Source: Diacronema lutheri
Taxonomy: Eukaryota; Haptophyta; Pavlovophyceae; Pavlovales; Pavlovaceae
Length of the DNA stretch: 64,000 nucleotides
Direction: 5' to 3'
Assembly (NCBI GenBank): GCA_019448385.1
Contig: JAGTXO010000004.1
Location: forward strand, 992,001-1,056,000
Below, piece by piece: positions 28,431 through 61,943 of the stretch (the first letter of the stretch is position 1; every line of letters begins with the position of its first letter). The notes under the pieces were generated by a model. It saw nothing but the letters and a program-made list of their open reading frames with translations, was not told the DNA's origin and did not search any database. A program made the position numbers and the translations under genes.

Positions 28431-28632
28431 CGGGCAGGCCGCCGTGTCCGTTCGCCGCGTCTAAGCGCGCCTCTCTTTCGCGCGGCAGCAGAGTCGCGCA
28501 GCCATCCCAACACGCGGCGGCTGCGTGGGCGCGCGCACGCGCGCGCCAGCAGCTTGGCGCGCCGCGGGCCGACGGTCGTCGGCCGTGGCCTTGCCCGCTC
28601 TCTCGAGCCCACGCGCCGGCTGTTCTTTCGCT
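28431..28632. other. Intergenic stretch before repeat R1
   Basis: About 200 bp of 3' region of the RCC1 gene up to the left edge of repeat R1. Nothing recognised. Confidence 0.4.
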
Positions 28633-29349: not shown

Positions 29350-29382
<33 letters not shown>

Positions 29383-30951
29383 CTTCGGACTCGCTGCCCG
29401 GCTCTGCCTGTGCGGGCGCGATGCACTCGGACTCGATGCCCGGCTCTGCCTTCGTGGGCGCGGTCGCGGGCACGGGCGCGCCCTCGACCCCGTCGCGGTT
29501 GAAGACATCGAACTCGACGCACACGCCGTGGTCCTTGAAGTCGGTGGCCTCGCTGTCGTTCGCGTAAGCCTCGGGCGAACTCGCAACGAGCGACGACATC
29601 TCGGCGTGGAGCCAGCACATCTCATGCTGCACCGCGTGTTCAGGTTCTCGAGCGCTCCGTTGAAAGAGTCACTCTCACCGAGGCGCTCGCTGCACCACAC
29701 CAGATAGCCATCGAGCTTGTGAGCGTGCTCGTGCGCCCGTGCGAGGTCCTTGGAGAGCGCGTCGGCGCGCGCGCACATGCCGTCGCATGACTTGGCCGGT
29801 GTCATGCTGTGCTTCCAAGGCCTGGTGCTCGGCGTTGAGCGTGTCGTGATCCTCGCGAACGAGCTGCAACCAGCTGCAGCAGCCGCGCGACGCCGCTGTC
29901 GCCGACGATGCGCTGGAGCATGTGGCCCATGAGGTGTGCGCGGCACGTGGCGAGCGCGACGTTCTTGCGCAGCAGCGCGAGGATCCGGGCGCCGCGGACG
30001 AGCCGGCCCATGCACTTGAGCGCGTAGATTCGGCCGCACATGCACGCGCCGACGACCGAGTCGGCGGGCCCGCCGTCGAGCCAAAAGTTGGCCTCGGCCG
30101 CATCGCGGCGGCGGGCGACGCGCTGAAGGATGCGCACGCGGTAGTGCCGGTCGACGAGCAGCTCGTCGCCGAAGATCTCGTCGGGCAGCAGCTCGGAGAC
30201 GTTCTGGGGGTACATGCTGTGCGAGCGTGCACGCGACGAGATCTCGTCGGGCGTGCCGTCCGTTCGTTCAGAGCAGAGCGCGTCGGACCGGCAGACAGAC
30301 GATGCAGCGCGCGAAGGCACCTGCGGCGCGCGGCGTGGCCTCGCGTGCCGTCACGAAGCCGCCTGCGCGCACTGCGGAGGCGGCGAGCGCGACGAGGGCG
30401 GGCGCGGACGAGGTGCTGAGCGGCGTCACGTACGCGCCCTCGCTCGCCGAGCTCGACGCCGCGGCGCTGACGATGCGCGCGGCGTACCACACCGACCGCC
30501 CCTGAGACGATGCGCGGCGCCCGCGGAGGACTGGTCCGTTGGCGCGCAAACCGTGGGCGAAAGGGCGCGAAGCCAACGGCCGTCCGCGCACGTTCAAACG
30601 CGCGCATACGGGTGGCTTCCTCCCACCTTCGGCGCCGCTTTTCAAAAGGGTGTAGGGTGTAGGGTGTCGGATGCAAAACAAGCCCTCCCCACATTTGGGC
30701 CCGACGTCATTCCTTCTTCGAAGCCGTGACGTTACTCACATACGAGTACTTTTACTTAGTGTAGGATGGATCTATTCTCTAAGTATTTACATAGTGTAGG
30801 GTGTAGGATAAGTACGGTTATGAAAGTCCCATAGGGGGAGAAGGAATGACGCTGTGACGGAAGAAGGAGTGACGTCGGGCCCAAATGTGGGGAGGGCTTG
30901 TTTTGCATCCTACACCCTACACCCTACACCCTTTTAGAAAGCGGCGGCGCC
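28633..30951. repeat. Dispersed repeat R, copy 1 (uninterrupted)
   Basis: The left edge ATATAGGGCGCGGTCCGG is shared with 56835. From there to at least 30938 the sequence matches, with only scattered differences, the right part of the window (61713-64000). Near its left end is an 18-bp perfect palindrome, GTACGACCCGGGTCGTAC (28678-28695). On the minus strand, stretches with protein-like composition lie in more than one frame, for example MYPQNVSELLPDEIFGDELL... (about 29802-30210), a helical EHAHKLDGYLVWCSERLGES, and AYANDSEATDFKDHGVCVEF. No family recognised. The right boundary is unknown because the other copy runs off the window. Its last 320 bp is a foldback element. Confidence 0.8.
30631..30951. 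mobile_element. Foldback MITE with about 88-bp inverted arms
   Basis: The left arm (30631-30720) and right arm (about 30861-30951) are near-perfect inverted repeats. They begin GGCGCCGC, contain three GTGTAGG heptamers and ACAAGCCCTCCCCACATTTG, and end near GACGTCATTCCTTCTT. The 140-bp centre is AT-rich and non-coding. No clear target duplication. The same element is present at 63695, where the window ends inside it. Confidence 0.75.
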
Positions 30952-31089
30952 TCGGAGCATGGCGGCTCGACAGCATGGCGCCTCGACAGCATGGCGTCGT
31001 CCAGCGTCACGCCGCGTCGTGGTCCTGCCGCTCCTCCGTGGCGCACGGATGGCGCTCCTCCGTGACGCAGCCGAACGACGCCGCGGCGT

Positions 31090-32640
31090 CACGGCCCGGG
31101 CGCAGTCGCCATCCTGGACGCCACGGATGGCGAACCGGTCGACGAGATCCGGCACGAGGACGTCTGCGCCATCGCCACGCAGCTCGACTGCGTCTACACG
31201 GGGCTCACGGGCTCGATGTTTGGCACCAAGTGGAACGTGTGCGGGGTCATGCTCCCGAAGCGCGCCGAGCAGCGGCCGCAGCCCGGCTCGGACGCCTTCG
31301 CCTCGTACAGCGTGGCCGCCTGGGCCGACACGTTCGACTCCACGGGGCTGTACGTGCCCGACGAGCGCGAGCGCGCGGCGGCGCTCGCGGCGGTGGCCGG
31401 TCTGCGCACGGCGCGCGCGCCGGCCGGGCCGGGCGGGCGCGAGCTCGCGCGCGCGCAGGGCTACGATCGCGCCGAGCAGGCTGCGAGCGCGGCGGCGGCG
31501 CGCGCGGCGATGGCCGAGACCGGCCAGCAGCGCGCGCTCCACGGCGCGGTCGTCGACTCGGCGCTGCGCGGCGTGGGCGACCGGCTGCACTTTTGCGACG
31601 CGCCGGGCGGCACGGGCAAGACGTTCGTCGAGCGCGCCATCATCGCCGCCGTGCGCGCGGATGGGCACGCGGTCGTCGTGTGCGCGTCCTCGGGCGTCGC
31701 CGCCACGCTGCTGCCCGACGGCCGCACCTTCCACTCGACCTTCAAGGTGCCCGTCGGCGCCGACTCGGACGGGCAAGCCGTTCAATGGCGTGCCGCGCTC
31801 CGAGCGCGGGCGCTCCGTGGCCGCCGCGGCGAATGATCGTGGGGGACGAGGCGCCGATGCAGAAGCGGGGCCGCCTCGACTCGCTCGATCGGTGTTTGCG
31901 CGACGTGACGGGCGTCGACGAGCGCTTCGGCGGCAAGACGTTGCTGCTCGCCGGCGACTTTTGCCAGTGCTTGCCGGTGGTGCGGCGCGGCTCGCGCGCG
32001 CAGATCGTGCGCTCCTGCCTCGAGTACTCGGCATCGTGGCAGCACGATCGGCCGTACGCCTTGGTCGAGAACTCTCGCGCCTCGAACGCGGCGCGCGACA
32101 CGGGCGACGCGCTCGGCGCGGGCGAGTGGGCGAAGCTGCCGCGCAGCCTCGGCGACGGCGCCTTTCCCGCGGCGGTGCCGCCTGCGGGGGCCATGCCCGG
32201 CGCATTCCCGCTCGATCCCGTGCAGCTGCCCGAGGCGTCTCGGCCTACCCGGCGGAGCTCGTAGCCACTCGCCTCCTCTCGCTCGGCGAGGGGCTGTGCA
32301 GCGGCACGCGGCTGGTCGTGCGCGGCGTGCGCGCCGGCGGCCGGCTGCTCGAGTGCGCGCGCCCCGGCGCGGCCGCCGGGCGCGACAGCACCGTGCTCAT
32401 CGCGCGCATCGACCACCACTCGCCCGACGAGGGCACGTTCGCGTTTGCATGGCTGCACCGCCAGTTCCCGGTGCGGCCGGCGTAACAAGGCGCAGGGTCA
32501 AGCGCTCGGGTGCGCGGGCGTGTGGCTCGCCGAGCCGTGCTTCACGCACGGCCAGCTCTACGTGGCCGCTTCGCGCGTCGGGCACGCGTCGCGCATCCGC
32601 TTTGCGCTTGGCCCGGACCATGTGACGCGCACCGTCGTCT
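31090..32640 (+). pseudogene. Broken Pif1/Helitron-type helicase
   Basis: Superfamily 1 helicase motifs appear in order: Walker A in FCDAPGGTGKTFVERAI (about 31593-31635), SSGVAATLLPDGRTFHSTFK, Walker B in DEAPMQKRGRLDSLDRCLRD (about 31848), LLLAGDFCQCLPVVRRGSRA (about 31943), GLCSGTRLVVRGV, AWLHRQFPVRPA, and NKAQGQALG ... HGQLYVAASRVG (about 32486-32590). This order and wording are those of Pif1-like helicases of Helitrons. The motifs fall in different frames (changes near 31780-31840, 32240 and 32480). The segment between GDFCQ and GLCSG is shorter than usual and no HUH nuclease is found, so it is a decayed fragment. An Ala/Gly-rich tail may extend to about 33363. Confidence 0.8.
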
Positions 32641-33363
32641 TCAAAGAGGTGCTCCGCGCGGTCAGCGGTGGCGAGGCGGCGGCGGCGGCGGCGGCATTCG
32701 CCGCGGCCGCCGTCGCCGCCGCGCGCGAATGCGCGGCGGCGGCGCGCGGTGGCGGCGGGCGCGGCGGGCGCGGCTCGGACGGCGCGCGCGGCGCCGGCGG
32801 CGGGCGGCGCGCTGGCGGCGGGCGCGACGCCGGCGCGCGGTGCTGCCCAGCACCCGCCGGCGCGACGCCCGTCGCGCCGCTCGCGGCCGACACGCAGCCG
32901 GCGGGTGCTCGCCAACACCGCGCGCCGCGCGACTGGCCCGCGTACCTGCGCGCCCTTCTAGGGCGCGCAGGGCGGCGCCAATGCGGCCGGCAAGCAGGGG
33001 CCTCAAGCCGGCGCGCTGCCCGACGCCGCGTGGGTCGCCGCCGCGCGCGTGCCGTCGGCGCTGCCGCCGTCCGGCGTCGCGCTCGCGCCGCTGCCGCAAC
33101 CTCAGCCGCCGCCGCCGCCGCCGCCTGCCGGCAAGCAGGGCAAGCGCGCAGCGGCGGCGACGGCGGTGCGCGGCCCGGCGAGCAAGCGGTAGCGGTGCCG
33201 CCGAGCCGGGGGCGGGCTCCGTGGGCGACGCGGCTTGGCCCGCCACTCGCACCACTCGCGCCGGGCGCGCACAACGCGCCGTGGTCCGCTGCGTGGCCGA
33301 GCGAAAATGCGGTCCTGGCACGCCATGCGGGAGAGGCCGTACAGCGCGTGAGCTTGGGCCCGT

Positions 33364-34436
33364 GATTTATTACTCATGGATTTATTACTCATGCCATGGC
33401 GTCGCGCCACGATTACGCCCGTGGCCCCGGCCGCCAGCCTCGCGCCGCTACGCCGTGTCGTCGCGGCCGGCGCACACAGCGAACTGTGTGTCCGCGGCAC
33501 ATGCCCGGCTGCTCGCGAGCTGCAAGCTTGCCGAACTGCTCGCGCTAAAATGGCGCGTTGCGGGCGTGCCCGCGCACCGCGCGTATGTTCCGCGCGTTCC
33601 AGGCGCGCCGCGCCGCGCGCCGAAGCGGCGCGCGGCGCACGTGCGGCCGCGAGCCGAAGAGGGGCCGGCGCGACCGGCCGCGAGGCAGACGCAGACGCTC
33701 GGCGTGCCGGTCGACGCGTCGTCCAAATCCGCGTCGGGCGGATGCGCGCCTAGGCCGGCGCTGCGTGCAATCGGCGCGGGTCGCCGCCGCATGACGAAGC
33801 ATGCTTCCATCCGGTGCTCGGCCACGCGCTCGGGCGTAACGTTCGCGCCTGTTCGGCCGAGGCGCACTCGCCGTCCCCTCGCGCCGGCAATGCGCGTGCG
33901 TGCCAGCACGCCGGCAGCGGAGGATGCCACGGCAGCGGCGAGCGGGTCCCCGCCGGTGTGCCGCTCGGCGCCCCGTCACGCGCAACGCGCGCGCCGCCCG
34001 CTGAACGCGCACAATTGCCTGGGCAAGATCGTCCCGCGCTCACGCCGCCGTCGCATCGTTCCATGCATGGCGCCCGGCTCGTCCGTACCGCTTTCGGGCA
34101 GTGCCGCGACGCCCTTTTTCAAAGGCGGGTGCCGCGCTGATTCGTCATCGGCCACCATCCATCTGGCCCTCTAAAGCCGGTTTGCGCGTGGGCGCCCGTC
34201 CGGTGCGAGAAGCGGCTCGCGTCCTCGCGCGGGGCGCCTCCGCGCCAGGCGCCCGGCGCGCGCTCGTCTTGCCGCGCCACCACGCTGATCTGCGCCCAAC
34301 CCTCGCTCGCCTATTCCCCCGTCGTTTCTGCTGCGTAGCCCGCAACAGCGCGCGCATGACGCGTGCACGGCGCAGCGCCTGGAGCAACTTCCGAGTCGTC
34401 GGCCGGCAGCCTGTGGGGGGCGCGTTCATCGGCCCG
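33364..34436. other. No supported gene; 15-bp tandem duplication
   Basis: GATTTATTACTCATG is repeated head to tail at 33364-33378 and 33379-33393, AT-rich in a GC-rich setting. The following kilobase has only Arg/Ala/Pro-rich frames on both strands. It may contain the promoter and an unrecognised first exon of the giant gene downstream. Confidence 0.45.
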
Positions 34437-37400
34437 ATGTGGCCGGTGAGAGTGCCCGACGTGCCGCGTGGTGAGCGCCTGCACGGCTCGCCGGGTTCGG
34501 CGCGTTCCCAGTCGGCCTCTCTCCGACCCGCCGTAAACCTTGCGTGCGCACCCCGCACACCCGGCGCTGCGCGGCGCGGCGCAGGCGTGAAAAACGAGGG
34601 CAACGCGTGCTACGTGAACGCCCTCGCGCAATCGCTCGTCGCCTTGAACGTGCTCCGTCCGATGCCCCGCTCCGCTTCGCGCCGTGCGGGAAGAGTCGAG
34701 AAGGCGCTTTTTCGGGACTTTGGCACGCTGCTCGAGGACACCGAGGCGCCGGCACAGCTGTGTCTTGTGTCCGTCGTCGACGTCATCTTGGGCCGTGGCA
34801 CGCGAGGGACGCAGCAGGACGCTGCTGAGTTCTTCCAGATGCTACTCGGCCGAGTGCCCGGGCTCGCTGCTGCCTTCGAAGACGACAGACGCGTAGTGCT
34901 CGAGCCGATCGCTGTGGCCTCGAGCGAGCGCGGTGAGGGCATCGCCATCCTCGTCAGCATTGGCGGCGATGCGGCGCGCACGCTCGCACACGCTCTGGGG
35001 GGCGTCGCTGGGCCGCCGCAGGGTGGCAGCCCGGACGCGTGCCGCTCGGACGTGCTCATGCCAGCCAGCATTGCCGTCGAGGTGCCGCGCACGACGCGCG
35101 GCAATGGCTCGCAGTGCAAGAACAAGCACGCGTTCGTGTGCGCGCCGCGGCTGCTACTCGGCGGGCGCGACTACCTCCTCGTCGCCGCCGTCGTGCACTT
35201 GGGCGAGGAGTCGACGAGCGGGCACCTTGTCGCCATCGTGCTCCGCAACGGGGCTTGGTTTCTGTGCGACGACGACAACGTGCGGCGGCGCGCACGGCCG
35301 CTTGGCGCCGCGACCGGCGGTTGATCGCAGCCGCAGCCGCCCCGTCCTCCCGCGCGGCACGCGCGCGTGGCCTGAAAGCTCGCGCCGCGCGCCTGCCGCA
35401 CGCACGCGCGTTGCCCGCGCAGATGCACAACTTGTCTCAGTCCGACGCGCTGGCGTGGGCAAGTGGTGCGAGCATGCTCTTCTACAGCCGGCTCGACGCG
35501 GAACCGTTGGACCCGGCGCTGGGCTCAGCGTCACCGCCGTCGGCCGCATCGCCTGCGTGGCCGAGCTCGGCGCCCGACGCGCCGACCCTGTCGGCAGCCT
35601 GGTCGCGGGTGCGGCAGATGGCAGCGGTGCCAACAGATGCGACGATCGGCATCGCGGAGACGGCTGCAGACACCTCTGCGGCGGCGATCGGCCCAGCTGC
35701 GTGCGAGGCCCGCCAAGTTGTCTCCGCGACGCGCGCATTGCCAATGGCGGTGAGTGCCTCGCACGCGCACGCCGTCCGCTGTCCACAGCGTGGCGCCCGG
35801 CGCTTGCGTTCGCGCCAGGTAAAGTTTGCGCGTATAGCGTGCAGCACCCTCACGCATCCCCTACGCCTCCCGCCCGCCCGACCTCTTGCCCGCCGGCCGC
35901 GCGCAGGACCAGCGCACGCCAATTGTTGGGCGCGGCCAAATCTGGGCATGCGCAAATTTTGAGCCGGCAGCGGAGGGCGGGGATGCGCAGCACAACTGGC
36001 GCAAGCGCACGTGGTGCCCGCAGCACGAGCAGCGCGAGCAGCGCGAGCAGCGCGAGCAGCGCGAGCAGCGCGAGCAGCGCGAGCAGCGCGAGCAGCGCGA
36101 GCAGCGCGTGCAGCGCGTGCAGCGCGAGCAGCGCGAGCAGCGCGAGCAGCCCTGGCAGCCAGCGCGGCCAGGCCTCGGCGCGGGCGCTGGCGTTCGGCCC
36201 GCTGCTCTGCCGCCGAGCCATCCGCGCGCCAGCATGCGCGCGAGCAACCGCTTCGAGCCGCTCTTGTTGGCCGAGGCGGACGTGCCCGCCACCGAGCCCG
36301 CCGCCGCCCAGCCCGCCGCCCAGCCCGCCGCCGAGCCCGCCGCCAAGCCAGCCGCTGCCAAGCCCACCGCCGAGCCCGCCGCCCAGTCCACGGCCCAGCC
36401 TCCCACCGTGCCTGACGCCAAGCCAGCCGACCAGCCCGCCGTCAAATGCGCTGCCGCCAAGCGCGCTGACGACCGCATTGCTGCCGCTGAGGTAGGCGCC
36501 GTCGCCGCCACGCTTGCCGCCGCCACCGAGCCTGGCGGCGTTGCCGAGCTCGCCGCCGCCGCCGACGAGGGCTGCAGGGCGCGTGCCGACGCGCTCGCCA
36601 AGCGCGAGACCCGCCGCGCGCTCCACCGCGAGCAGCTTTTTCGCGAGGACAAGCGCGCGGCCGGCCGCCTGATCGAGCAGTGCGCGCTGGGCTCTGCGGA
36701 CGATGCAGCGCGCGCGCGCGCCCTGCTCGAGCGCGTCAAGGCGCGTGGCCACGCGCTGCCTCCGCACCTGCTGCGGTCGCTGCGCGACCTCGCGTCGCCG
36801 CGGCTCGCGCTCGCCGCTGAGGCGGCGGGCGTGCTCGCCGCGTCCGAGATGGGCGAGGCGGACGCACCTGCGGAGGCGCGCGCGCTACTCATGCACGCCG
36901 AGGCCGTGGGCGCCCACCTGCCCGCGCACACAGAGCTCGCGCTGCGCCGCGCCTGCATCCCCACCGCCGAGCAGGCGGAGCTGCTCGCGACTGCGCGCGA
37001 GCTGCTCGCGCCGCGCGACCCCGAAGGCTCGGTGGCTCCGGCGGGCGCGCGTGCCGAGTGCGACGGCGCCGCGCTCGGCACTCGCGCGCGCGAGCTCCTC
37101 TCGCGACTCGACGAGGCGCACCTCGACGTGCAGCCCTGCATTGCGCGGCAACTGCGCCGGCTCGCCGCCACCGAGCCAGACGCAAGTTCGAGCGCTGCGC
37201 TCGCCGCCACGCCCGGCACCGCCGGTCGCGCGGCCGCCGAGCCGCGGCGCGCGTGGCGCCCGCGCGGGTGGCGTCTCGCGGTAGGCGCAAAGGGTGCGCG
37301 CGCGCGCGCGCGCGCCGCGGCTGCTCCGCTCGACACGGCGCCGCCCGCGGCGGCCGGCGCCGTCCCGCCGCTCGAGCCGCAGCCCGAGCGCCGTGCAGCC

Positions 37401-39199
37401 GACGCCGCGGCCGCCGCAGCGGCGCCGGCGGCCGGCGACGACGGCGTGGCACGCGCGCTCGCAGCCGCAGCGCGCGGCGACGGCCTCGACGGCGTCGATG
37501 GCGCCGACGACCTCGTTTGCGCGCCGTGCGACCGAGGCTGCGCGCACGCACGCGACGGCGGCTGCTGCGAGCCTGCCGCGCGCAGCTCGCCCGACCAGTG
37601 CCCGCGCGCACCGCCGCGGCGCGCACGGCGGGCGGCAAAGCGCGCGCGCGACCGGCTGCGGAGATCAATCGACAGGTCAGAGCGGGCTGTCGGCCGCCGA
37701 TTGCGTGGCGGCGACGCGCGCCGCGAGCGCAAGCGCAGGTGCGCGACGGGCGGCCAGCACGCACCGCAGCCGCTCCGCCGCGCGAGTCGCAGCCCGCCGT
37801 CGCGCACCGATCGGCCCTCGGCCGAGCATGCCGCCGAGCCTGCCGCCGAGCCCGACAGCCCCCACCGCCGCCCGTGTGCCGGTGCCGCCGTCGCCGTCGC
37901 CACTGTCCGGTGCGCCGTCGGCATCTTCGCGAGTGTCGTCGCCGCCTCTGCCGTCCGGGCCGCCATTGCTCCGGCCGCTCGCCCGTCTGCAGCCACCGCC
38001 TTTTGGCTCGTCGCCGTGTGCTCGGCCGCCGCATGGGCCGCCTTCGCCTCCGCCGCCCGCCCGACCGCCGCCTTGGCCGCGCCGCAGCCTGCCACGCAAT
38101 CGTCGGCCGCCGAGCCCACCGCCGCCGCGCCAGCCCCCGCCCAGCCCGCCGCTGCCGAGCCAGCCGCTGCCCAGCCCGCCGCGGCCGAGCCCGCCGTGGC
38201 GCAGCGCGACGTCCAGTCCGCCGCCCCGGCGCTGCTCGCGTGGGCGGGCGACGCGGCTGCGCTCCGGCTGGCCGATGCCGCCGCGCGCGCCGGCATCCCG
38301 CAGGCAGAGGTGGACTGCATTGCGGGCGGCGACATGCTCGCCTCCACTGTGGACGCTTGCTGCGAGGTCGTGCTGCGCGTGCACGGGCAGGCCGGCGAAG
38401 GGCGCGTCTGCCACGTACCGCTTGCCGCTCAGCCCGCGGTGTTCCAGGACGGCGCCGAGCGCGCCGCGCTGCTGCACCGCCTGCACAGCGAGGCGACGAC
38501 GCAGGCGGTCATCGGCATGTGGAGCCCGCCGGGCGGGCGCGGCGGTGCGGGCAGTGACGATGGCACGCCGCCCGCCTCCGGCCATTTCACCGCGTTGCGC
38601 CTCGTGCGCGTCGCGCGCGCGGGCGAGCATCGCTACGACGCGGTGCTTGTCGACACGCTCGCGTCGCCGAGCAGGCAGGCGCTCAAGCGTGCCAGGTCGA
38701 TAACCGCCACGCTGCACGCGGCGGGCCTCGACGTCTTGCCCGTGCGCCGCGCGCGGCTGCTCGACAACGCGGCGCAGCGTGGCGCGACGTGCGGCCTCGC
38801 CGTGGTGGGCGCGCTCAACGACGCCGCGCTCGCTGCGGCGGGCGGTGCATCCGCGCCGCGCACGTTCAGCGTGGCGGACATGTACGCTGTTGGCGAGCAC
38901 CTCCGCGTCGCGTTGACTGGCGCGGTCAGCGGGCGTGCGCCGAGCGGCGCCTGCGCCGGGGCGGGCGCGGTGCGCGGCGGGGGCAGCCGCGATCGCGCTG
39001 CCGAAGCGCCGCGGCAGACGCGCGGCGCCAAGGCCGCCGCAGACGCCGCCGCCGCTGCCGCCGTTCCGCCGCCGCCGCCACCTCCGCCGCCCGCGCTGGG
39101 CGCCGCCGCCGCCACCACCACCGCCGCTGCCGCTGCTGCCGCCGCCGTGGCCGCGCCGCCACCGCCGCCACCGCCGCCGCGTGCCGGCGACGAGGGCGA

Positions 39200-39247
<48 letters not shown>

Positions 39248-42200
39248 GCGCACGTTCTTGAAGCTCGCGCCCAGGGCGCGCGCGGCCGCCTCGGCGCGCG
39301 AGGCGTTGCGCGCCGCGTGTGCGCGCGCGGACGCGGCGGCGTCGTCACACGCGTCGGCGCCGCACGCGCCCGCCGATGCGCGCCGCCGGCGGCGCGCGGG
39401 CGCAGGCGAGCTGGCGCTCGCGGCTGCGCGCGCGCTCGCCTCGACGGAGCACGGCGATTTGACGGACGACGCGCTCGAGGCCGCCGTCGAGCAGGAGCTG
39501 GGCGACGAGCGCGGCCAACTGCTGCTGTGCACGCGGGGCGCAGCGGCGCAAAGGCCCGCGCTTTGCCGGCTCCTGAAGCACGCGTGCGCGTCGGCGCGCG
39601 CGGCGAAGCGCGCGCAATTCACGGTGTTCGTCGTGCGCGCGGCCACGCGCGGCGAGCGGGGGGGCGCCGCCGCGAGGCGCGTGGACTCGGTGGTCGAGCT
39701 GTCGTGCGCGCTGCACGAGAAGGCGGGCGCGCTCGGCGGCCTCCAGAGCGTCTGTGTGCGTGGCTTTGCCCTCGAGCGCCGCCGGACACTCGACGCTGGC
39801 GCCGAGGCCGGCGCGTCCGCCATCGGCCAGGACGAGCAGGTCGAGGCAGAGGCGGGCGAGGCGTGCGTCGCCGGCGTGACGATGGCCAAGCAGCTGCGTC
39901 AGTTTGCCGAGCAAGCTGCCCGCGACGACGTGCTCTTCCGCGTCGCCGTGTCCGAGGCCGACGCCCACGCCCGGCTGGCGCGCGTTGCGGGTGACGATGT
40001 CGGCGCGTACAGCGTCGTGCTCGCAGTCGCCGGGCTCGTCTGGCTGGCTAAGGCCGACGAGGTTGCGCCGGCGGCCGCCCAGTCCGCCGCCGCGCCGCCC
40101 GCCGCCCCGCCTGCTGCCGCCACGTCCGCCGACGCCGAGCGCGACGCCTCGCCTTCCGACCGCCTGCGCGCGCTGACGCTCGCCGTGCGAGTCGCGCTCG
40201 CGCGCGGCGTGCTGCGCCACCTCCTCGCCGACGCGTCGCCGGGCGCGTCCGCGACCGCTGGCGGTAGTTGCGCGACGCCCGTCGACGCGGCCGCGTCCGA
40301 CGCCGCGCCGCCCGCCACGGGCGTCGTGACGAGTGGCGTCGCGGCGGGCGCTGTGGCGGCCGCACCGGCTGCTGCGGGCGGTGCGACGGCGGGTGCATCG
40401 CCCATCACGCGGCCGGCGAAGCGCGCGCGGCGCACGCTCACCGCCGCTCCAGCCGCCTCGGCCGTTGCGGCCGCTGGAGGCGCACGCGCGGGCGCACGCG
40501 GCGCGGCCGGCGCGCCTCGCGCGCGCGCCGCGCGCGCGCCGGCCGAGTACGTCTGGCTTGCCATCGCGCGCCGGATGCTGGCGGCGCGACACGCGGCGGC
40601 CGCGGGCGGCGACTTTGTCGCGTCGTGCGTCGCCGCGATGCAGGCCGAGTACGGCGACGGCTGTGCCGTCGTCGTCGGCGACGCGCCTGGTGACGCCTTG
40701 GTCGAGGCTGCGGCGGCGGCGCTGCTCGAGGGCAAGCACGCGGCGGTGAGCCTCGGCTGCGTCGACCGGCCGGCGGTGCTCGTCGTGCAGCGCGCCGTGG
40801 ACGCGCCCACGTCGCGCGTGCACGGGTGGTGCGCGCACGCGGCGGGCGCCGCCGAGTTTGACGAGGGCGCCGCGCACGGCGTGTTCAACGCGATCGTCGA
40901 GCGCGCGTGGGCGCTGCGTCCGGACCCGGCCGACGGCAGCCCGCCGCCCACGCGCACGTGGGAGGTCGAGCGCATCGCTGACGACGCGCCCGACCAGGCG
41001 GGCGTGGCCGCGCTGCGCGTGCTCTACGCGCTCGTCGCGGCGCACGGCCGCTACCGCTCGGCCGCCGCGCTCTTTGGCGCGCTCGCGCAGCTGCACGCGC
41101 CCGACGCCGCCGGCGCGCGCGCGGAGGTCGTCGCGGCGGCGTGCGCGGTGCCGCACGGCGCGCGGCCGGGCGCCGCGCCGGCGGCCGCGCGGGACGACGC
41201 GAGGGAGCGCGCATGGGAGGGCGCTCAGATCGCCGCGCTCGCCGTCGGCGCGGACGCTGCGCGCAGGCGTGTCGCGCCCGTGCGCGCGCTCGTCGACGCG
41301 CTCGGCACGCCACCGACCTCGGCGATCACGGGCGGGCCGGCGGTGCGGCTCGCGGGCGCGGGCGACGGCGGCCACGGTGCACGGTGGGTGGGCGGGCAGG
41401 CGGCGACGCCCGCCGAGCAGCTGCCGAGGGAGCTGCTGCGCGCCTACCACGAGGCGGTGCTGTGCGTCACGCCCGGCAGCCTCCAGCTCGGCCCGGCGGC
41501 GCTCGACGCGGTCACGCGGCCGCGCGAAAACGACACGCTGGAAGGCCTCCTCGCGCGCGTCAGCTGGCAGTGCGGCGCGAGGGCGAGCACGTGCGCCATG
41601 CTCGCCACGTTTTCCGAGCAGGCGGGCACCGGCTCGCGCGTCGCGCTCAAGGCCCTCCGCACGAGCTCCGACCTGGCCGGGCTGACGGCGGCTGCGGTCG
41701 GGCAGCAGGCGCCGCAGACGCCGCCGCCGCCGCTGCTCGTGATGCTCGGCCGCTGCCCCAGCCCGCTCGTCGGCGGCGGCCTCTTCCCGCCCGACCGCGC
41801 GACGGGCGAGCCGGCGGTGCACGCGGCGACGTCCGAGCTCGCCGTCGAGCTGCTGCGCGACGCGCGCGCGCTGGCCGGCACGGACGGGCGGCTCGTCGTG
41901 CTGTGCCTCGAGGCGTCCAACCCGCTCTGGTTCTGCCCCAAGGTGCGCGAGCTCGAGCTGCCGCGGACGCGGTCGGACGGCGTGCGCGCGTCCGGCTGCA
42001 CCTGCCCTGCGACGTGCAGCGATGCGCGCGGCGCGGCGGGTGGCGCTGCCCGCGGCGCATCGACGCGGCCGGCGGCGCGCGCGATCAACAAGGCGGTGCT
42101 CGACCACTTCGTCGCGCTTTTCGGCCGCGAGGGCTTCGCGACCTTTGAGTTTGCGGGCGGCGGCGAGGCGAGCTGGCTGTGCGACAGCGCGGCCGGCAAG

Positions 42201-45200
42201 ACGACCGTCGCGGCGTGCGCGTCGCTCCCGCCGCGCATGGGCGATGGGCAGCTGGCCATCCGGCGGCACACGCTCGGCACGGGCGCCGACGCGCCGGCGC
42301 ACGCCGTCGTCTCGCTCCGCGTCGCGCACGTGAGCCACGCCATCCGCCGCGCGGCGGACGACGGCGGCGCGCGCGCCGAGCGGATGGCGCGCGCCGCGCG
42401 CGCGTTTTGCGATGTGGCGGCCGCGCTGCGCGTCGACGCGATCCTGGCGGAGGTGCCCGAGGACCGCCCGACGGGCACGCCCTTCCTTGGCGGGCTGCTC
42501 GAGTTTTGGAACAAACGCCACGGGAGCTCGACGGCGCCAGCCACGCTCGCGCTCGGAGACGTGCGCGAGGTGGCCAAGCGGACGGCCGACGCAGCGGCCG
42601 GCCGAGCGGACGAGGTCCCTGCGGCTGGCCGTCCGCAGGTCGCGGCGCGCGCGTGCGCTGGCGCGATTGGCGGCGGCGCGGGCGCGGCGGGCGCCTCGGA
42701 CGCTGCGCCCCGTGCACTGGCGGGCGCGTCGGGTGCGCGCACGGACGGCGGCCCTGCCGACGCACCGCGCCAGCTGGAGAGCCGCTACGGCGAGGCGAGC
42801 AAGCTCGACCTACCCCAAGATTCCACTACGGGCCGCGTCCTCGACGCTCGCGAGGCCCAGGACCGCGCGCGCGTGCCTGCTGCGCCCGACGGCACAGCGC
42901 TGCGCCGCGTGCTCGACGCCGTCGGCGCGGGCGCGCCCGCGCAGCGCAGCCCGCGCTGGCACGACGAGCGATGGGAGGAGGTCACGGGCAGCAAGGTTGG
43001 CGACGTCGTGAACGACAACGCCGGCGTCGCGCACGAGACGCTCACCGACGAGTACGTGCACCGGCGGCGGCGCGAGGTGCGGACCAAGGCGACGACCGCG
43101 GGCATCCTCGGCGAGGCCGTCGCGCTGCGCAAGCTGGCGGCCGCGTACGGCATCACCGTCGTGTGCAACCTGCCGATGGTGCGTGCGGACCCGCACGACA
43201 AGAGCGCGCCGTTCGCCTTCTCGCCGGACGGGCTCGCCATCCTCCCCGAAGATAACGAGCAGGTCCTCGTCGAGGTGAAGACGCTCACCAAGGCGGACGC
43301 CAAGGCGCACGAGGACGGGCCGCCGCAGCCGCACCGCGATCAGCTGCAGCTCGGCATGCACGTCCTCGGCGTGCGCAAAGCGCTCTACGTGCAGTACCTC
43401 AGGCACGAGGACCGGATCGTCGTGCACGTCGTGACGCGCGGCGTCGGCTGGCTTGCATTCGCGCAGCCGAGGGTGCAGGCCTTCTGGGCGCGCGTCGTCG
43501 AGCGGCGCGCGCGGCTCGAGCGCGCGCGCGCCGACCACCCGGCTGCGAGCCGGCGGCACCGGCGGCAGCAGACGCCGGCCGGGCCGCCGCTCGTGCTCGC
43601 GCTGGACGGGCGCATCCCCGCCGCGCGCGCCGCCGCGCTGCACGCCGTCGCGCACGGCACCGCGAGCGCGGCGGCGGTGGCGGCGACGGCGGCGACGGGC
43701 GACGCGACGGCGTTGCAAGACGCGATCGCGGCGCTGCGCGCGCCCGTCGGCAATGCGGCGATCGACAGCGCAGCGCGTGCGGAGCGCGCGGCCGTCGAGC
43801 GGGCGATCGCGTACCTCGGGCAGCCGGCAGGCGACGCCGCCGCCCGCGGCACGGCCGAGGCGGCCGAGGAGGAGAGGACGGTCGACGCCGACATCTGCGC
43901 GTTGCTGCACCAGCTCGGCGCGAGCGTGGCGCACGTGCACGTCGAGGACGCGGATTGCGTCACGCGTGAGCACTGGGGCGGGGCGGTGCTCGCTGCAGCG
44001 GGCGACCCGTCGAGCGCCCCCGCCATTTCGAGCGTCATCGTCGCGCACATCGTGCGGCTCGCCGGCTTTGGCGTCGAGCTCCCGCAGTCGATTCGCGTCG
44101 CCCCCAGCACGGCCGACTGGCACGAGGGCTGGCTCGACGTGCAGTGCGTGCTGCTGCGCACGCGCCGGCGCGGGCGGCGCGACGACGACTTTGTGGCCGT
44201 CGTCAGGCGCGGTGGGCGCTGGTTTGCGTGCGAGCCCGGCCGCGCGCGGCGGCTGCAGTGGCGGTCGGTCCTGCGCCGCGCGCGCGGCGGCGTCGACGGG
44301 ACCGGCGAGGAGGCGTTCGCGGTCGTCTACGTGCGGCGCGGCGACGCGGCCGGCGACGCGGCTGGCGACGCGCAGGCCGAACGGGCGCGCGGCGGGCGCG
44401 CGCGCAGGCGCACGCGCGGCGGCACGCGCAAGCGCAAGCGCGGCGCCTCCGCCGGGCTCGAGGCGGCCGCGCCCGCCGGCGCGCCGGCGGGCGCTGCTCA
44501 CCGCCCGCCCGCCAGGCGTGCCACGGTCGCCGCGCGCACCACGCGCTCTGTGACCGACGCGCGGCACTCGGCGCCTGCCGCCACGGTTGCACCTGTCTTC
44601 GACTGGCGCGCCGGCCGCCCGCCCCCTGCCGCCGCCGCCGCCGCCAAGCGCGGCCAGGCGCTCGAGCCGGGGCAGTTCGCGCGGCCGCGTGGGCGCGCGC
44701 CATGGGGCAAGGTCCGGGACAGAGTCTCGGGTGCGTGGGCGGACAAGCCGACTGGTGCTGCCGTCGCCGCCGCGCCGCCGCCGCTGCCGCCCGCCGCCGC
44801 GCCGCCGCCCGCCGCCGCGCCGCCGCCCACCGCCGCGCCGCCGCCCGCCGCCGCGCCGCCGCCCGCCGTCGCGCCGCCGCCCGCCGCCGCGCCGCCGCCG
44901 CCGCCGCCACCGGCGGCGCTCGGCCGCCGGCAGCACGTCGGCGCGGGCGGCAGCGCGGCGGGCCGGCGGCTCGCGGCCATCGCACGGCGGCAGCGCGGCG
45001 TGCGCGCGCCGCCGCCCGCCGCGCGCTTCCTCGCCACGCTGCCGCCACCGCCACGCGACGGCCTCGCGCGCACGAGCAAGCAGGCGCGCGCGAGGCGCAA
45101 CGCGGACGGACGGCCGGCGCACGCGCGCGCGGCCAACGCGCGCGCCTTCTACCGCGGCGTGGAGCTCGGCGTGCACGCGACGCGCGCCATCGTCGACGCG

Positions 45201-48200
45201 CGCCACGCCGACCTGCCGCAGGCCGTCTTCGTGGCGGAGGCGCGGGCGATCGTCGCGCGCTCCGCCGGCGGCGGCGCGCTGCTCGCGCCGGACGACGTGC
45301 GCGACCTGTGCGACGCGCAGACGGACGCCGATCGCGCTGCGATCTGGGCGTCGGTGGGCGCGCACGAGGCGACGCGCATCTTCGCGCTCGTCACGCGCAA
45401 CGCGAGCTTGGCGGGCGCGGCGCTGCTCGTGCTGCACACGCCGGCGGGCGCGCCGGCGCGCGCGCTCGGGCTCGTGGCGACGCGCTCGCGCGCGCCGTCG
45501 ACGGGCGCGCCGCGCGACGCGCACAGGGCGCTGGTGCAGCGGTTGGACGTGCTGATGGACGCGATCGCCGCGGCGCGAGGCGCGTCGCCGCTCGAGCTCG
45601 AGCTCGCGCTCGCGCCCGAGCCGCAGAGCGCGTGCAACGCGCGTGCGGCCGCGCTGCTCTGCCTGCAGGCCGTCGCGGACGCGAGCGGCCGTCCCGCCGC
45701 TGAGGACGCGCTGGCCGCGCTCGACGACGCGCGCGGCATCGACCGGCACTGCCACGCCGTCCGGCAGCAGATCGAGGCGAAGCTCGCGTGGCGGCGCGCC
45801 GACGGCGCCGTCGGCGTTGACGGCGCCGACGGCGCGCCCGCGCTCGCGCCTGCCGCCGCACCGCCGGCGTGCGCGCCGGCGCACGCTGCCGGCGAGGCGG
45901 CGGTCGACCAGGCGATCGTCACGCGGGTGCGCGACGCGCTGCGCGCGTGGGCGACGACTGGCACCGCGCCCAGCGCGGCGGTGCTCGACGACGCCTGCGC
46001 CGCGTACACGGCCCGCGCACGCGCGCGCAAGGACGCGCGCACGGCGCTGGGCCCGACGCGCGCGGCCGAGCTGCTCGCCGCGGCCGCGCGCGGCGGAGTC
46101 GACGGGGCGGATGCCGCGCGCGCGCTGCTCGGCGGCACGCCGCGCCTGCTCGTCGTGCTCCTCTGCGTGCCCGTCGCCGCGCCGTCCGGCGAGCCGCCGC
46201 GCCCGGTCGGGCTGCTCGTCGCCGACCGGCCGACGGACGACTCGCGCCCGGCCGCGCTCGTGCGCTACGACTTTGCGCCGCTCGACGCGGACGTGGCCGT
46301 CGCGGTCGGCGCGCATGCCGTCGCGCTGGCCAGTGCGATCTGGCCGCTGCTCGCGGCCGAGGGGGAGCCGCGGCCATCGCCCGTCGTGCGCTCGCAGCCG
46401 CGCGGCGGCGACGATGGCGCGCGTGCGCTCGCAACGTTCGCGTGCCTCGACGCGCTGATGACCGCCAGCGTCGGCGCGCACGGCCTCGCGGGCGGCGCGG
46501 GCATGCTGCCCGCGCTGGTCGCGCGAGGCGCCGCGGCCGCCCAGCGCGAGCGGCAGCTGCGCGCGGCCGCCGAGAGGCTGGGCGGCACGGTCGCTGGGTG
46601 GCCGGACACGGGCGCGAGCGCGGCGGGCGCGAGCGTCGACGAGGAGGCGCGCACGTACGAGGTCGAGGCGGTCGTCGACGAGCGCCGCAAGGCGGGCAAG
46701 AAGGTGACGTTCCAGTTCCGGATCAGGTGGCGGGGCTACGACGAGAGCGCCGACACGTGGGAGCCTGAGGCCAACGTGAGCAGCGACCTCGTCGCCCAGT
46801 TCCGCAAGACGCGCGACGAGCAGAAGCGGCGCGCGGGCGTATCGGGCAGCGGCAGCGGCGGCGCGGGCGCGGCGTCGGCATTGGCGTCGGCGCCGCTTCG
46901 CGCGCACGGCGAGTCGGGCGCCGCGGGCAAGCGCGCCGCGGCGGGTGCCGCCGCGAGCGCGCGCGACGCCGCGGGCGCGCGCGCGCCGAGCGTTCCCCGC
47001 GCGCGCGGCGTCGAGCGCGCGCGCGTGGACGAGCCCGCTGCGCCGAGCGCGCGCGCCGCCGGCGGCGCGACGGCGCGCACGCGCGGCAGCGTGCTCCCGG
47101 GCTTCGTGGTCAAGCGCTCGACGCTCAACGCGGGGCCGCAGGCGGTGACGGCGCAGCCCGGTGCGCGGAAGGAGCTGCGGCGCATCGCGGCGGCCGTGCA
47201 CAGGCTCACGACACAGGCGTACCGCGTCATCAACAAGGTGGTGCGCGACGAGGCTGCGGTGGCGAGCGCGCAGGCCGTCGGCGCGGCGTCGGGCGGCCCG
47301 TCGACCAGCGTGCACACGTCGACCACGATGGACAAGGGAACCGTCCGTGCGATCTTCTCGGCCATCGGCTGGCACAAGGACGAGAGCACGTACGGTGCAG
47401 CGCCCCGAGGCAAGCCCGCCGAGCAAGCCGCCGCGCAGACCAAGGCGGCGACGGCGCGCGCCGTCGGCGAGATGGCCGAGGGCGTCCAGCCCGTCTGCGC
47501 GGTGGGCCTCACGGAGATCCTCGAGGCGGAGGCGACGCAGGTGTCCACCGCGTGCCTGATGCATCCATCGCGCGTCGTGAACGGGCTGCTCCGCGACGTC
47601 GTCCGCGCGGCAGTCGAGCGCGACGAGGCGCTCGTCGCGCTGCCCGAGATGCAGCGAAACGCGCGCGTGCGCGAGCTGTGCGAGCGGCTGCTGCGCGGCG
47701 ACGTGGAGGGCGCGCGCGTCGGCTGCCCCGCCGCGCTCGACCGCCACCTGCCCGACATGGTCCTCCACAAGATCGACTACAAGTGCACGCCCACGAAAAG
47801 GTGGAACTACGACCGGCACACGACGCGCTACTTCCTCGTGCAGATCCGCACCCTGCAGCACGTGGCCGAGGGGCAGGCGCTGCTCTGCCGGCTCGCGCAC
47901 ATCCACACGCAGCTGACCGGACGGCCGCCGCGGTACAATGTGGCGCCGCTGCGCACGCACAATGTGCGCGCGAGGCGTGGCTGCCGCTGCCGCCGCCGAG
48001 GGCCCAAGCGCGCGCGCGCCGCCGCCGTGCGCGCCGCCCCGCGGCCAGGTTGGTCACGCGCCCGCGCGCTCGCGCGCCGCGCGCTGCGCGCAGGTGCCGC
48101 GCAACGTGCGCTTCGCCGCGAGCGCCATCTGGGTGACGCTTTCGGATGACGAGCGCAAGGAGCTGCGCGCGCGGCTCAAGGCGCTGGACCTGCGCGACCA

Positions 48201-49818
48201 CGATGGCGAGCCGATCAAGTGGACAGGCACAAACGGCAACACCCCGCCGATGTCGGACGTGCGCGTCAGGTACGCGGTCTTTGCGACGCGCTTCGACATC
48301 TCCAACCGCGTCTTCGACTACGCCGGGCGCGAGCGGCCGCCGGCCGATCTGCCGTGGCACGCGCGGCGCTCGTGGGTTGGCCTCGCGCCGCTGCCGCGCG
48401 TGCCGCTCCCGGGCCGGCAGCCCGTCAAGTCGGTGGTGACAGATGGCGTCGCCGTGCACGCCGTCGGGACCGTCCTCGTGCCGAAGGCGCAGGCGCCGGC
48501 CGGCGGCTCGGGCGTCCTGCACCGCTGGCGCCGGCCGGACGGGCGCATCGCCGTCGCGCTCGGCTCCGAGCTGCGGCGGGCGATCGACGTCGAGGCGGCG
48601 GTCGTCGTCGCGGCCGACCCGAACATGGGCAACATCACCACCTACTCTGCGCACGTCGGGCGGGCGGCCGTCTGGCGGCAGTTCACGCAGCGCGCGCGCG
48701 CGCGCGCCGCGGGCTTTGCGCGCGAGACGGCCAAGACCAACGCGGCGCGGCGGCGCGTGCGCAAGGACGGGCGCGGCGAGGAGTTCAGCGTGGAGGCGGA
48801 CGAGGCGCGGCTTGGCGAGGCGCACAGCGCCAAGGTGCTCGGCGAGGGCGAGTTCCACGCCTTCCACCGCGAGAGCGCGCGGGTGCGCGAGCGCGCCGCC
48901 GAGCACGTGTACGACGCGCCGGCGCGCCGGAAGGAGCGCTGGCGGCGCGACAGCGGCGGGCGGTCCAACGCGGCGCGCGTCGCCGAGGCGCTCATCGCGG
49001 CGCACTGTGTCGACGGCGTGACGCGCGACCGGCTGCTCGTGTGCGTGGGCAAGTGGCTGCGCGACCACAAGGGCGCGCAGCCCAAGGGCGCGCCGCCCGC
49101 CTTCCAGGTGGGGCTGCTGCGCGAGCTGCGGCGGCGCGGCGTCGCGGCCGTCTTCGTGCCCGAGCCGTACACGTCGATGCACTGCTCGATGCCGCGGCTC
49201 GCCAAGGGCGGCAGGCTGCAGCGCTGCGGCGCGGAGCTCGCGCAGAACCCGCGCCTGCCCGTGGCAAAGGGCGGCACGCGCACGGTGCACGCGCTCGTCA
49301 TCTGCCCGGCGTGCAACGGCGGCAAGAAGCCCGTGCACCGCGACTACAACGCCGCGCGCAACATCTTCTACGACGTGCACGACATGGCGGCGCACGCGGC
49401 CGGGCGCGACACCACGTCGACGCCTGAGCGCTTTGCCCTCGTGCTCGCCTGGTGGGCGCGCGGCGAGGTGTGGGAGCGTGAGGAGCGCATGGTGCACGGC
49501 GAGGGCGACGACTGCGACGACGAGTGCGACGGCGACGACGAGGGCGACGACGAGGGCGACGACGACGACGACGACGATGGCAGCGGCGACGGCGGCGGCG
49601 GCGAGGGCGACGGCGACGGCGACGGCGACGGAGGCGGCGGCGGCGACGACGACGATGACGGCGGGGGAGGCGGCGGCGGCGACGGCGGTGGCGACGACGG
49701 CGGCGGGCGCGGCGGCGGTGGCGGCGGCGGCTCTCGCGCCCGCACCCCCGCCCGCGGAGCTGCCAGCGCCAGTGCCGGCGGCGGCAGCGCGCGCGGGCCG
49801 AAGCGCGGCCGGCGTTGA
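34437..49818 (+). CDS. Giant fusion protein: USP protease - Ulp1-like - YqaJ-like nuclease - chromodomain - Fanzor nuclease
   Basis: Four exons joined in phase 0: about 34437-35279, 35423-35818, 35907-47963 and 48094-49818, roughly 5,000 residues. Exon 1 has a ubiquitin-specific-protease Cys box (NEGNACYVNALAQSL, Cys codon 34608), QQDAAEFFQMLL and a His box (TSGHLVAIVL). Exon 2 supplies the USP end ASMLFYSRL. Exon 3 opens with EQR repeats (9-bp units, 36031-36155) and three helical units (ARALLERVKARGHALP-type). A Ulp1-like protease module follows (GHFTALRLV, His 38583; AQRGATCGLAVV, Cys 38790). Next is a YqaJ-like nuclease (EVTGSKVG, FSPDGLAIL, VLVEVKTLTK, DQLQLGMHVLG; 42940-43520), a USP-like relic (DDFVAVVRRGGRWF, 44185), a chromodomain and the Fanzor N-part. 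Exon 4 is the RuvC part. The exact start is unresolved; an acceptor at 34584 suggests an upstream exon. Some in-frame introns may hide in exon 3. Confidence 0.65.
46640..46830 (+). other. Chromodomain within the giant protein
   Basis: The translation TYEVEAVVDERRKAGKKVTF followed by QFRIRWRGYDESADTWEPEA has the aromatic cage and W-x-G-Y ... TWEP pattern of chromodomains, which bind methylated histone tails. In mobile elements such domains steer integration to chromatin. It lies about 150 codons before the Fanzor region. Confidence 0.85.
47095..49400 (+). other. Fanzor (eukaryotic TnpB-like) nuclease region
   Basis: The N-terminal part (VLPGFVVKRSTLN ... HRLTTQAYRVINKVV) is helical and starts the RNA/DNA-binding lobes. 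The RuvC core follows: motif I VVVAADPNMGNITTYSAHVG (Asp codon 48616-48618), motif II VAAVFVPEPYTSMHC (Glu codon 49162-49164) and motif III KPVHRDYNAARNI (Asp codon 49342-49344). Zinc ligands MHC, RCG and CPAC sit between motifs II and III, as in Fanzor and TnpB. A 130-bp intron (47964-48093, donor GTGCGC, acceptor GCAG) separates the lobes. Fanzors are RNA-guided DNA nucleases found in eukaryotic transposons. All three acidic residues are present, so it looks catalytically intact. A Gly/Asp-rich and basic tail follows. Confidence 0.8.
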
Positions 49819-50592
49819 CGCACGGCCGAGCCGCGCAGCGGTCGACGCTTTGCGGGCTCTGCCCAGGTCGCGCGCGGCTGGCGACGCGTGCCGCGCGCGG
49901 CACGACCGTGCACGCCGCCACCCGTGGCCGAGCGCGCCGCACCAGCCGGCCCGCTCCAACCGCCGTGCGGATCACGGACGCTCGCTACGGCTCGTCGGCG
50001 CGCGTCACCTGCGCCGGCGGCCACGGCGCCGTCTGCTCCGGCCTCGTCGCGAGCAGCCCGACCGCTGCTCGCCGCCCGCACGCCGCCGCAGCAACGCTGC
50101 GCGTCGTGCTCCCCCGCTCGCCAAACGCGAAGAGCTCCCTCACAAGGACGTCCTTCCGAACGGCCCGCGCTGCACTCGGGGCGCGATCGTGCCCCTGATC
50201 GGATTTGGCTTGACCATCTATACTCATTCCCACTCTGTGAATTACTCTCGGAGTCACTCTCAGAGTCAGTCACTCTCAGAGTCACAGAGTGACTCCGAGA
50301 GTAAGTCGGACGCTCCCGCCCCTGGTTCATGCCGACGTCCTGGGGGCGGGCGCGCGCCTTCGAGCCGGGGCCTGGGCGCTCTGCCGGGCAGAGCCCGCGT
50401 TGCGGGCGGTTGCGCGTCTGCCCGTCTTCATCGCCTTGTTCACGACGGCCTGATTCGCCTCGCCAGCTGCCGCTCCCACGCGCGGCGCGCGTCCCGGCGC
50501 GGCGGCCAGGAATCCACGACGTGCACACCGCCGCAACCGAACCGCTCGTCTCGCCGCGCGAGCGCTTCGTTCCGCCGATTGGCGTGTTCGGC
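49819..50592. other. 3' region of the Fanzor gene with strong hairpin
   Basis: About 770 bp between the Fanzor stop and the RING gene. No coding signal. It includes the hairpin at 50231-50304. In known Fanzor and TnpB loci the guide (omega) RNA is encoded at or beyond the 3' end of the gene, so this is where it would be expected. Confidence 0.5.
50231..50304. repeat. Perfect 19-bp inverted repeat (hairpin)
   Basis: TTACTCTCGGAGTCACTCT (50242-50260) and its exact complement (50286-50304) are separated by 25 nt. The loop itself contains CACTCTCAGAGTCA, and the flank CACTCTGTGA pairs with TCACAGAGTG, giving alternative foldings. Candidate structured RNA, transposon end or terminator. Confidence 0.85.
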
Positions 50593-61712: not shown

Positions 61713-61943
61713 CAATCAAGGGTTAAAAGCCAGCCAATGAGCGCTCGAGGGGTCGGGGCGAGGCTTATGACGAGCCTAGGACCGACACCCCCCTCCTGAC
61801 CGGCCGATTTTGAGTAGAATTCGGGGTCGAGCGGGCGCGGCGGAAGGAGGGCCCGAGCCGGGCCGACGGAGGGTCCGACCCCGGAATGCGGGCGACCGGA
61901 AGGGCTTGGGTGATTGACGCCCAGTAGAATAGAATGGCGGATT

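Follow-up and report, generated by a model that had tools for sequence, protein, structure and literature searches.

A Fanzor-like nuclease exon in phase with a giant exonuclease- and chromodomain-encoding exon in a high-copy mobile element of Diacronema lutheri

Introduction

Fanzors are described as compact stand-alone proteins, and their role for transposons is an open question. Here we describe a Fanzor-like gene of the haptophyte Diacronema lutheri that shares with the Fanzor1 nucleases found in transposons of eukaryotes (Bao and Jurka 2013; Saito 2023; Yoon 2023) the C-terminal motif, the alternative RuvC glutamate and a location at a transposon's 3' end, and that comes from an alga, as some Fanzor1 genes do. 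It departs from Fanzor1 in being joined to an exon of about 4,000 residues with an exonuclease and a chromodomain, in having DPN rather than DPG in RuvC-I, and in having 13 residues between the first two zinc-finger cysteines. The gene lies in a stretch of 64,000 bases (bases 992001-1056000 of contig 75; hereafter the window, with positions counted from its first base) of a genome of 43,492,796 bases in 103 contigs. The published assembly is given as 43.503 Mb in 103 contigs at 73.25% GC, with 22.9% repeats, and long terminal repeat (LTR) elements together with long interspersed nuclear elements (LINE) make up the majority of the annotated repeats (PMC8379373); the accessible main text of that paper contains neither “transpos” nor “Helitron” nor “telomer”.

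Two groups of described elements come close. The Chlamydomonas elements CRe-1, CRe-2 and CRe-3, which are non-autonomous Helitron2 transposons (PMC3627910), resemble the D. lutheri element in being algal, in having a multi-exon Fanzor1 gene without a Rep of their own, and in showing no target-site duplication at copies with a full 5' end. Unlike them, the element described here is 21.6-31 kb long, has helicase, protease-like and exonuclease genes, and gave no Helitron2-type terminal hairpins above chance when its ends were folded; the accessible text of PMC3627910 mentions no helicase, protease-like or exonuclease domains for the CRe elements. Helentrons and Helitrons with deubiquitinases of the VTD and OTU classes (PMC9741609) combine a ubiquitin-type protease with a Helitron-type helicase on one element, as is the case here, but the protease classes of the D. 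lutheri element are USP and Ulp1-like, no Rep was found, and the link seen between its protease and helicase is that they lie on the same element. The accessible main text of PMC10711439 has none of the words “fusion”, “protease”, “helicase” and “YqaJ”, and that of PMC10432273 none of “fused”, “fusion” and “helicase”. We found no fusion of the present kind in the accessible part of the open-access Fanzor literature (including PMC3627910, PMC10711439, PMC10432273 and PMC6338049); relatives in other protists are possible.

Results

A high-copy mobile element carries the gene

A preliminary description of this DNA had proposed a single protein of about 5,000 residues, encoded by an uninterrupted 12-kb exon and three flanking exons and bearing USP, Ulp1-like, YqaJ-like, chromodomain and Fanzor signatures. 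Taken as a whole, its observation is partly confirmed and its interpretation partly supported; what it overlooked is that the gene travels as cargo in a mobile element of high copy number, whose ends could be mapped and which has a Helitron-type helicase. The copy in the window, of a short type of 21.6 kb, spans 28631..50223 on the + strand, on which all exons and domains given below lie as well, and has sharp ends, with 5' CTATATA[C/G]GGCGCGGTCC and 3' GGCTTGACCATCTATAC. In 17 of the 19 other Fanzor-region loci the similarity breaks off at 50223 or no more than 9 bases from it, with differing flanks, and the remaining two (L006 and L014) run into a contig end at that place. The 5' end at 28631 was placed from left-flank loci and varies slightly in its first bases: TATATA stands there in 19 of 22 distinct left flanks, whereas one flank differs by one base and two by more. 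Distinct right flanks number 37. One copy (C46) is truncated on its 5' side at 30965.

The genome copy counts given here and below are scored copies among a larger number of candidates and are lower bounds. The Fanzor-like exon has at least 92 scored copies (418 candidates) at 98-100% identity, 91 of them without a stop, and a YqaJ-encoding piece further upstream has at least 150 (236 candidates) at 97-100% identity. In a count meant for solo 3' ends, the 40 of 251 candidates that were scored are all 100% identical over 120 bp. A long type of the element is represented by a copy of 31,074 bases on contig 29, which shares both ends with the window copy, is 98.2% identical to the window from 38212 on over the fetched 8.3 kb, and carries some 8 kb of extra sequence, with a frame of 1,345 residues in it, from the USP exons to the shared part of the giant frame. 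Five contigs (C1, C12, C3, C32 and C83) begin or end at the 3' end of the element or one or two bases from it, most simply because the assembly stops at this long repeat.

We looked for a target-site duplication in the 19 copies with both flanks. The summed adjacent repeat is 9 bases against a shuffled mean of 7.9, and 794 of 2,000 shuffled left/right re-pairings equal or exceed the observed value; since the adjacent repeat is no more than chance, we conclude that there is no target-site duplication. Over their first five bases, the right flanks have an A or T content of 52% (97/185), compared with about 27% genome-wide.

Further repeats occur around the element. At 61712-64000 the window repeats the element's 5' region 28694-30935 at about 97%, minus the first 63 bases, and a 260-bp piece before this repeat is identical to 56902-57161. 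We joined the two flanks of the C71 copy and searched for an empty site; none was identified, the left flank being itself a repeat, and the matches belong to another repeat family, most listed copies of which end in ...GCGCCGTTAGTA. At the loci L071-L080 another high-copy repeat family ends in or near ...TGACGTAAGCGCCGTTAGTA, and some element copies lie at or near its end.

The giant exon is in phase with the Fanzor-like exon across a predicted intron

The giant exon (35907..47963; 4,019 codons, with its first in-frame methionine at 36234) is part of a frame that stays open from 35886 to 48149 for 4,087 codons. Because long open frames are common at this GC content, we simulated open-frame length: a first-order Markov chain modelled on this stretch was run 300 times, and over three frames the longest open run was 1,679 codons and the mean 672. 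The frame is far beyond chance, and the uninterrupted 12-kb exon of the preliminary description stands. Of the 31 400-base windows taken from 35701 to 47701, all have their GC minimum at the second codon position of this frame and 29 have their maximum at the third, although this contrast almost disappears in some low-complexity windows. All 150 scored copies of the YqaJ piece lack a stop within the match; 111 of these lie in frames of at least 4,000 amino acids. With the limit set at 3,500 residues the number rises to 125, and these 125 frames together occupy about 1.3 Mb, or 3% of the genome.

At about 48.1 kb the codon-position signal moves from the giant frame to the Fanzor frame. The coding frame switches at a predicted 130-bp GT-AG intron (47964..48093), which would join the giant exon to the Fanzor-like exon (48094..49818). 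In all 20 fetched 3' loci, the window copy counted, no stop precedes this intron and the Fanzor exon is open, and the three copies of a diverged subfamily (L094-L096, about 97% identical DNA) all show the same order and are open on both sides of the intron, so that the layout was kept in every related copy checked. A 2-bp deletion (48008-48009) lies within the proposed intron in 4 of the 20 loci, and the same 2-bp shorter intron is found in all three subfamily copies. When L096 is compared with the window over 6.8 kb, all four coding indels are multiples of three (24, 33, 18 and 3 bp, the 18-bp one sitting in an 18-bp tandem array), and the remaining two, of 2 bp each, fall in the intron and the 3' region. 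The sole coding indel among the 20 loci is a single base in the acidic tail of L006, within an indel-rich stretch at a contig end, after which the frame continues to 706 residues. The join of the Fanzor exon is thus supported by the frame switch at the intron, by whole-triplet coding indels and by the intronic 2-bp deletion of the subfamily. If spliced as predicted, the main gene product would measure about 4,500 residues from its first methionine.

Domains of the joined exons

The signatures named in the preliminary description have unequal backing: the USP, chromodomain and Fanzor zinc-finger assignments are borne out by Pfam and the YqaJ assignment by PHROG, whereas the Ulp1-like assignment consists of motifs recognized by eye and lacks library support. 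These motifs (GHFT...VDT...QRGATCG at 38580..38804) follow the H...D...Q.G..C pattern of Ulp1/C48-like cysteine proteases, but the segment gave no match in Pfam, PDB or PHROGs; a second Ulp1-like motif set, in the order H, D, Q, C, occurs in another frame of the 31-kb type (L061, from 2525). The YqaJ/RecE-like exonuclease domain at 42957..43364 matches PHROG 434, RecE-like exonuclease, at 2.1e-17, while its Pfam YqaJ match falls just under the cut-off (0.00038; 21.2 versus 22 bits). It has SPDG and EVK motifs, which we take to be the YqaJ/RecE signature. Both this signature and the strong PHROG match are features in common with phage RecE/YqaJ exonucleases; unlike those, the domain here sits within the giant protein of a eukaryotic transposon, alongside a Fanzor-like nuclease. 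A chromodomain follows at 46656..46808 (Pfam Chromo, 6e-12). The end of the giant exon, 47094..47963, probably encodes the N-terminal part of the Fanzor-like nuclease, judging from its position; a family profile search of this part gave no match. By eye, 40821-41021 may encode a degenerate second protease-like stretch within the giant protein, and 44184-44240 a stretch that resembles the His-box part of the USP.

The Fanzor-like exon encodes a RuvC-I aspartate (codon at 48616), a glutamate followed by the start of a zinc finger (E-PYTSMH-C, 49159-49185), the rest of the zinc finger and an RD motif up to 49362, and an acidic tail. Its zinc finger matches the Cas12f1-like TNB family of Pfam (PF07282, 2e-06, 28.3 bits against a cut-off of 26.3). 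The Fanzor C-terminal motif has been given as D-X(125,275)-[TS][TS]-XX-[C4]-X(5,50)-RD (PMC3627910), and scanning with a wide cysteine spacing, C-X(2,20)-C-X(2,60)-C-X2-C, found it in one of the 117 open reading frames (ORFs) of at least 250 residues in the window, namely the Fanzor-like exon. The RuvC-II glutamate stands six residues ahead of the zinc finger, as does the alternative RuvC glutamate of Fanzors (PMC10711439). RuvC-I, by contrast, reads DPNMG, whereas DPG is near exclusive to Fanzors at this place (PMC10711439), and because of this DPN we name the nuclease “Fanzor-like”. A profile search for PF01385 gave no match anywhere in the genome. PDB searches returned Cas12f1 at E 0.2 for the Fanzor-like exon and at E 0.38 for the joined protein, each time with an unrelated enzyme scoring slightly better and with no Fanzor structure matched. 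Between subfamilies, 48094-49500 of the Fanzor-like exon is the fastest-changing coding part (compared with L096).

The Fanzor-like gene is the last in the element and ends 405 bp from its 3' terminus. Guide RNAs of Fanzor-type systems come from the transposon end region (PMC10432273), and the 3' region 49819..50223 (+ strand) would by its position be the expected site of a guide (omega) RNA. Its folding z-score is -1.13, and Rfam gave no match inside it, the only two matches being sub-threshold ones to mir-876 downstream of the element.

The USP gene is probably separate

Two genes precede the giant exon on the same strand, one for a USP-type protease and one for a Helitron-type helicase. The USP (UCH)-like exon at 34437..35279 matches Pfam UCH at 5.7e-15 and contains a Cys box (34593-34637) and a His box (35217-35279). 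A candidate GT-AG intron (35280..35422), within which the long type and the window differ by a 1-bp deletion, leads in phase 0 to a candidate second exon of the USP gene (35423..35818); it is doubtful that this exon is linked to the giant exon. It contains GTGAGT near 35750 as a second possible donor. The 102 scored copies of the USP part (240 candidates) are all free of stops; in identity, 30 come near 100%, three fall at 85-94% and 69 at 80-81%.

The flanking exons do join in phase as the preliminary description had it: all four proposed exons (281, 132, 4,019 and 575 codons, the last counting its stop) are in phase 0 with GT donors and AG acceptors, and they add up to 5,006 residues plus a stop. 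Phase and splice sites would therefore allow 34.4-49.8 kb to encode one protein of 5,006 residues, but we dropped this model, as the 31-kb type does not keep the join of USP to giant exon. Similarity between the window copy and the long type ends at 35782, and after the USP exons the 31-kb type differs, beginning with about 3 kb that have little coding signal. Because of this divergence, and because the giant exon has its own candidate start at 36234, the USP join is doubtful, and we favour a separate USP gene. What stands of the fusion claim is a Fanzor-like exon in phase with a giant frame that encodes a RecE/YqaJ exonuclease and a chromodomain; what lacks support is the USP as part of the same polypeptide.

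Helicase and transposon class

A remnant of a PIF1/Helitron-type helicase, split over frames, occupies approximately 31216..32600 of the window and lacks the N-terminal part that the 31-kb type has. In the long type (L060) the helicase matches Pfam PIF1 at 1.8e-24, and its only PDB match at 1e-6 or better is Helraiser, a Helitron transposase, at 4e-25; this gene too is spread over three frames, via introns or shifts. The scanned ORFs of the element gave no match to the Helitron Rep family (PF14214), and the sole Helitron_like_N (Rep) match in the genome (L069, C63:35738-36019, E 8.3e-23) lies outside the element, for which it is a possible trans-acting partner. In a six-frame motif scan of the 31-kb copy we found five loose histidine-motif matches, one of them (RHCHAV) inside the giant frame, and no Rep-type tyrosine motif on that strand; a much diverged Rep in the element is possible. 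The element ends, CTATATA...CTATAC, are not the 5'-TC and CTRR-3' ends of Helitron1, and the terminal hairpins are no better than chance (folding z -0.42 and 0.58). With Rep profile and end motifs tested and not found, and only loose motif matches seen, we rejected membership in the Helitrons. Nor does the element show the marks of a DDE cut-and-paste transposon: there is no target-site duplication above chance and no transposase family among the 23 proteins or pieces scanned with Pfam, which matched no Rep, DDE, tyrosine recombinase or serine recombinase family.

Interpretation and alternatives

What the window shows is a short copy of a mobile element of a haptophyte alga that is large, young and high in copy number, and the gene lies in the cargo region of this copy; for this reading together with the guide-RNA mechanism that we propose for it, we put the probability at roughly 0.6. 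In this mechanism, a guide RNA would be made from the 3' end of the element, its last part corresponding to flanking host DNA, and would bring the Fanzor-like part to the empty site that matches it. The tethered exonuclease would resect the cut, and repair from a filled copy would lead to the element being kept or copied. The chromodomain would tie the complex to chromatin, and the USP and Ulp1-like proteases could either cut a polyprotein or shield the protein from degradation, a role that has been proposed for Helitron deubiquitinases (PMC9741609). Movement would proceed via the helicase and a nicking enzyme, possibly one that acts in trans. A bolder version, which we hold to be rather unlikely, is that one giant, possibly self-processing protein couples the Fanzor-like nuclease, the RecE-type exonuclease and the chromatin-reading domain, turning breaks at empty sites into element-copying repair; if true, such an RNA-guided recombination machine would explain the scores of near-identical copies of 21-31 kb. 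The element has recently expanded on a large scale, and its Fanzor-like nuclease has stayed in frame with a chromodomain and an exonuclease of the resection type throughout. It offers a direct test of RNA-guided cutting promoting transposon retention or copying, its natural variants (the short type, the 31-kb type and the faster-changing Fanzor exon) permit comparison, and large RNA-guided systems may be overlooked in the long, low-complexity, GC-rich genes of protist repeats.

Several results weigh against the cargo-element reading with its guide-RNA mechanism. The ratio of nonsynonymous to synonymous substitution rates (dN/dS) between L096 and the window is 0.72 for the chromodomain part and 0.77 for the Fanzor exon, hardly below the 0.74 and 0.81 of one shifted frame, and 0.94 for the stretch of giant exon that precedes the chromodomain part; shifted-frame values for these three range from 0.74 to 1.56. 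The acidic tail gives 1.34 in the same comparison (shifted frames 1.86 and 1.41). For the USP exon dN/dS is 1.14, above the shifted values of 0.88 and 0.61, although the comparison shows no stops and its indels are of 6 and 3 bp; the second exon of the USP gene gives 1.67, and the Pif1 parts, at 1.72 and 1.05, show no constraint in the frames used. As the values lie near those of shifted frames, purifying selection on the whole fusion is unproven, and since the copies are young, the frames would stay open for that reason alone. Moreover, a sequence-based look revealed no guide RNA or target-adjacent motif, the left flanks show by eye no conserved motif past the element end, RuvC-I departs from the Fanzor DPG, and both predicted structures are too poor for use (AlphaFold2 single-sequence models with a mean predicted local distance difference test score, pLDDT, of 35.9 for the Fanzor-like exon and 44.3 for the YqaJ region).

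These selection results bear on the suggestion that the frames are open only because a GC-rich genome has undergone a recent burst of copying, and that the long protein is not made. The near identity of the copies and the dN/dS near 1 in several parts are in its favour, yet we judge it improbable, given an open run far above simulation, consistent codon-position GC, the whole-triplet coding indels, and the Ulp1-like part (38212-38990; 10.9% divergent), whose dN/dS of 0.47 rises to 1.20 and 1.26 when the frame is shifted, with one 3-bp indel. In the low-complexity stretch adjoining that part dN/dS is 0.76, with indels of 3 and 30 bp and deletions of 2 + 4 bp (5 + 1 in another alignment) that amount to two codons. 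A different question is whether the Fanzor-like nuclease has a gene of its own or ends up as a protein apart from the product of the giant frame, through an internal promoter near the chromodomain or proteolytic release, with no working fusion. An in-frame methionine at 47328, within the probable N-terminal part of the Fanzor, would suit this arrangement, as would the protease-like motifs encoded upstream and the divergence between L096 and the window, 3.3% in the Fanzor exon but 0.8% in the giant exon before the chromodomain. With no stop between the two in any of the 20 loci or the three subfamily loci, and a coding signal unbroken through the chromodomain up to the intron, we regard separation as doubtful, though less so than a mere by-product.

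The strongest competitor, plausible but somewhat short of even odds, is that the element is a rolling-circle transposon of the Helitron family or a trans-mobilised relative of one, in which the protease, nuclease and Fanzor genes are captured accessories with little role. The helicase is closest to Helraiser among PDB sequences, the 19 two-flank copies show no target-site duplication above chance, one Rep profile match exists elsewhere in the genome, and both Fanzor1 (PMC3627910) and deubiquitinases (PMC9741609) are known in Helitrons. What speaks against it is the element itself, which offers loose histidine motifs in place of a Rep profile match or a Rep-type tyrosine motif on that strand, ends other than TC...CTRR and hairpins within chance. 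Much further from likely is an integrated virus-like element, for which one can cite that large DNA viruses, too, have genes of the YqaJ, Ulp1 and Fanzor kinds: a paper on Mimiviridae contains the words YqaJ and Ulp1 (PMC3620924), and Fanzor-type proteins are reported from large DNA viruses (PMC3627910). None of the 23 Pfam-scanned proteins or pieces belongs to a capsid, polymerase or packaging family, however, scans of IMG/VR with the Fanzor part, the YqaJ part and the N-terminal part of the helicase turned up no relatives, and fixed ends with scores of copies fit a transposon.

Another repeat in the window

Upstream of the element, 25115-27149 is a 320-bp tandem repeat of 6.4 copies, followed by a 12-bp repeat that runs to 27866. 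Read by eye, the 320-bp unit encodes an RCC1-like repeat.

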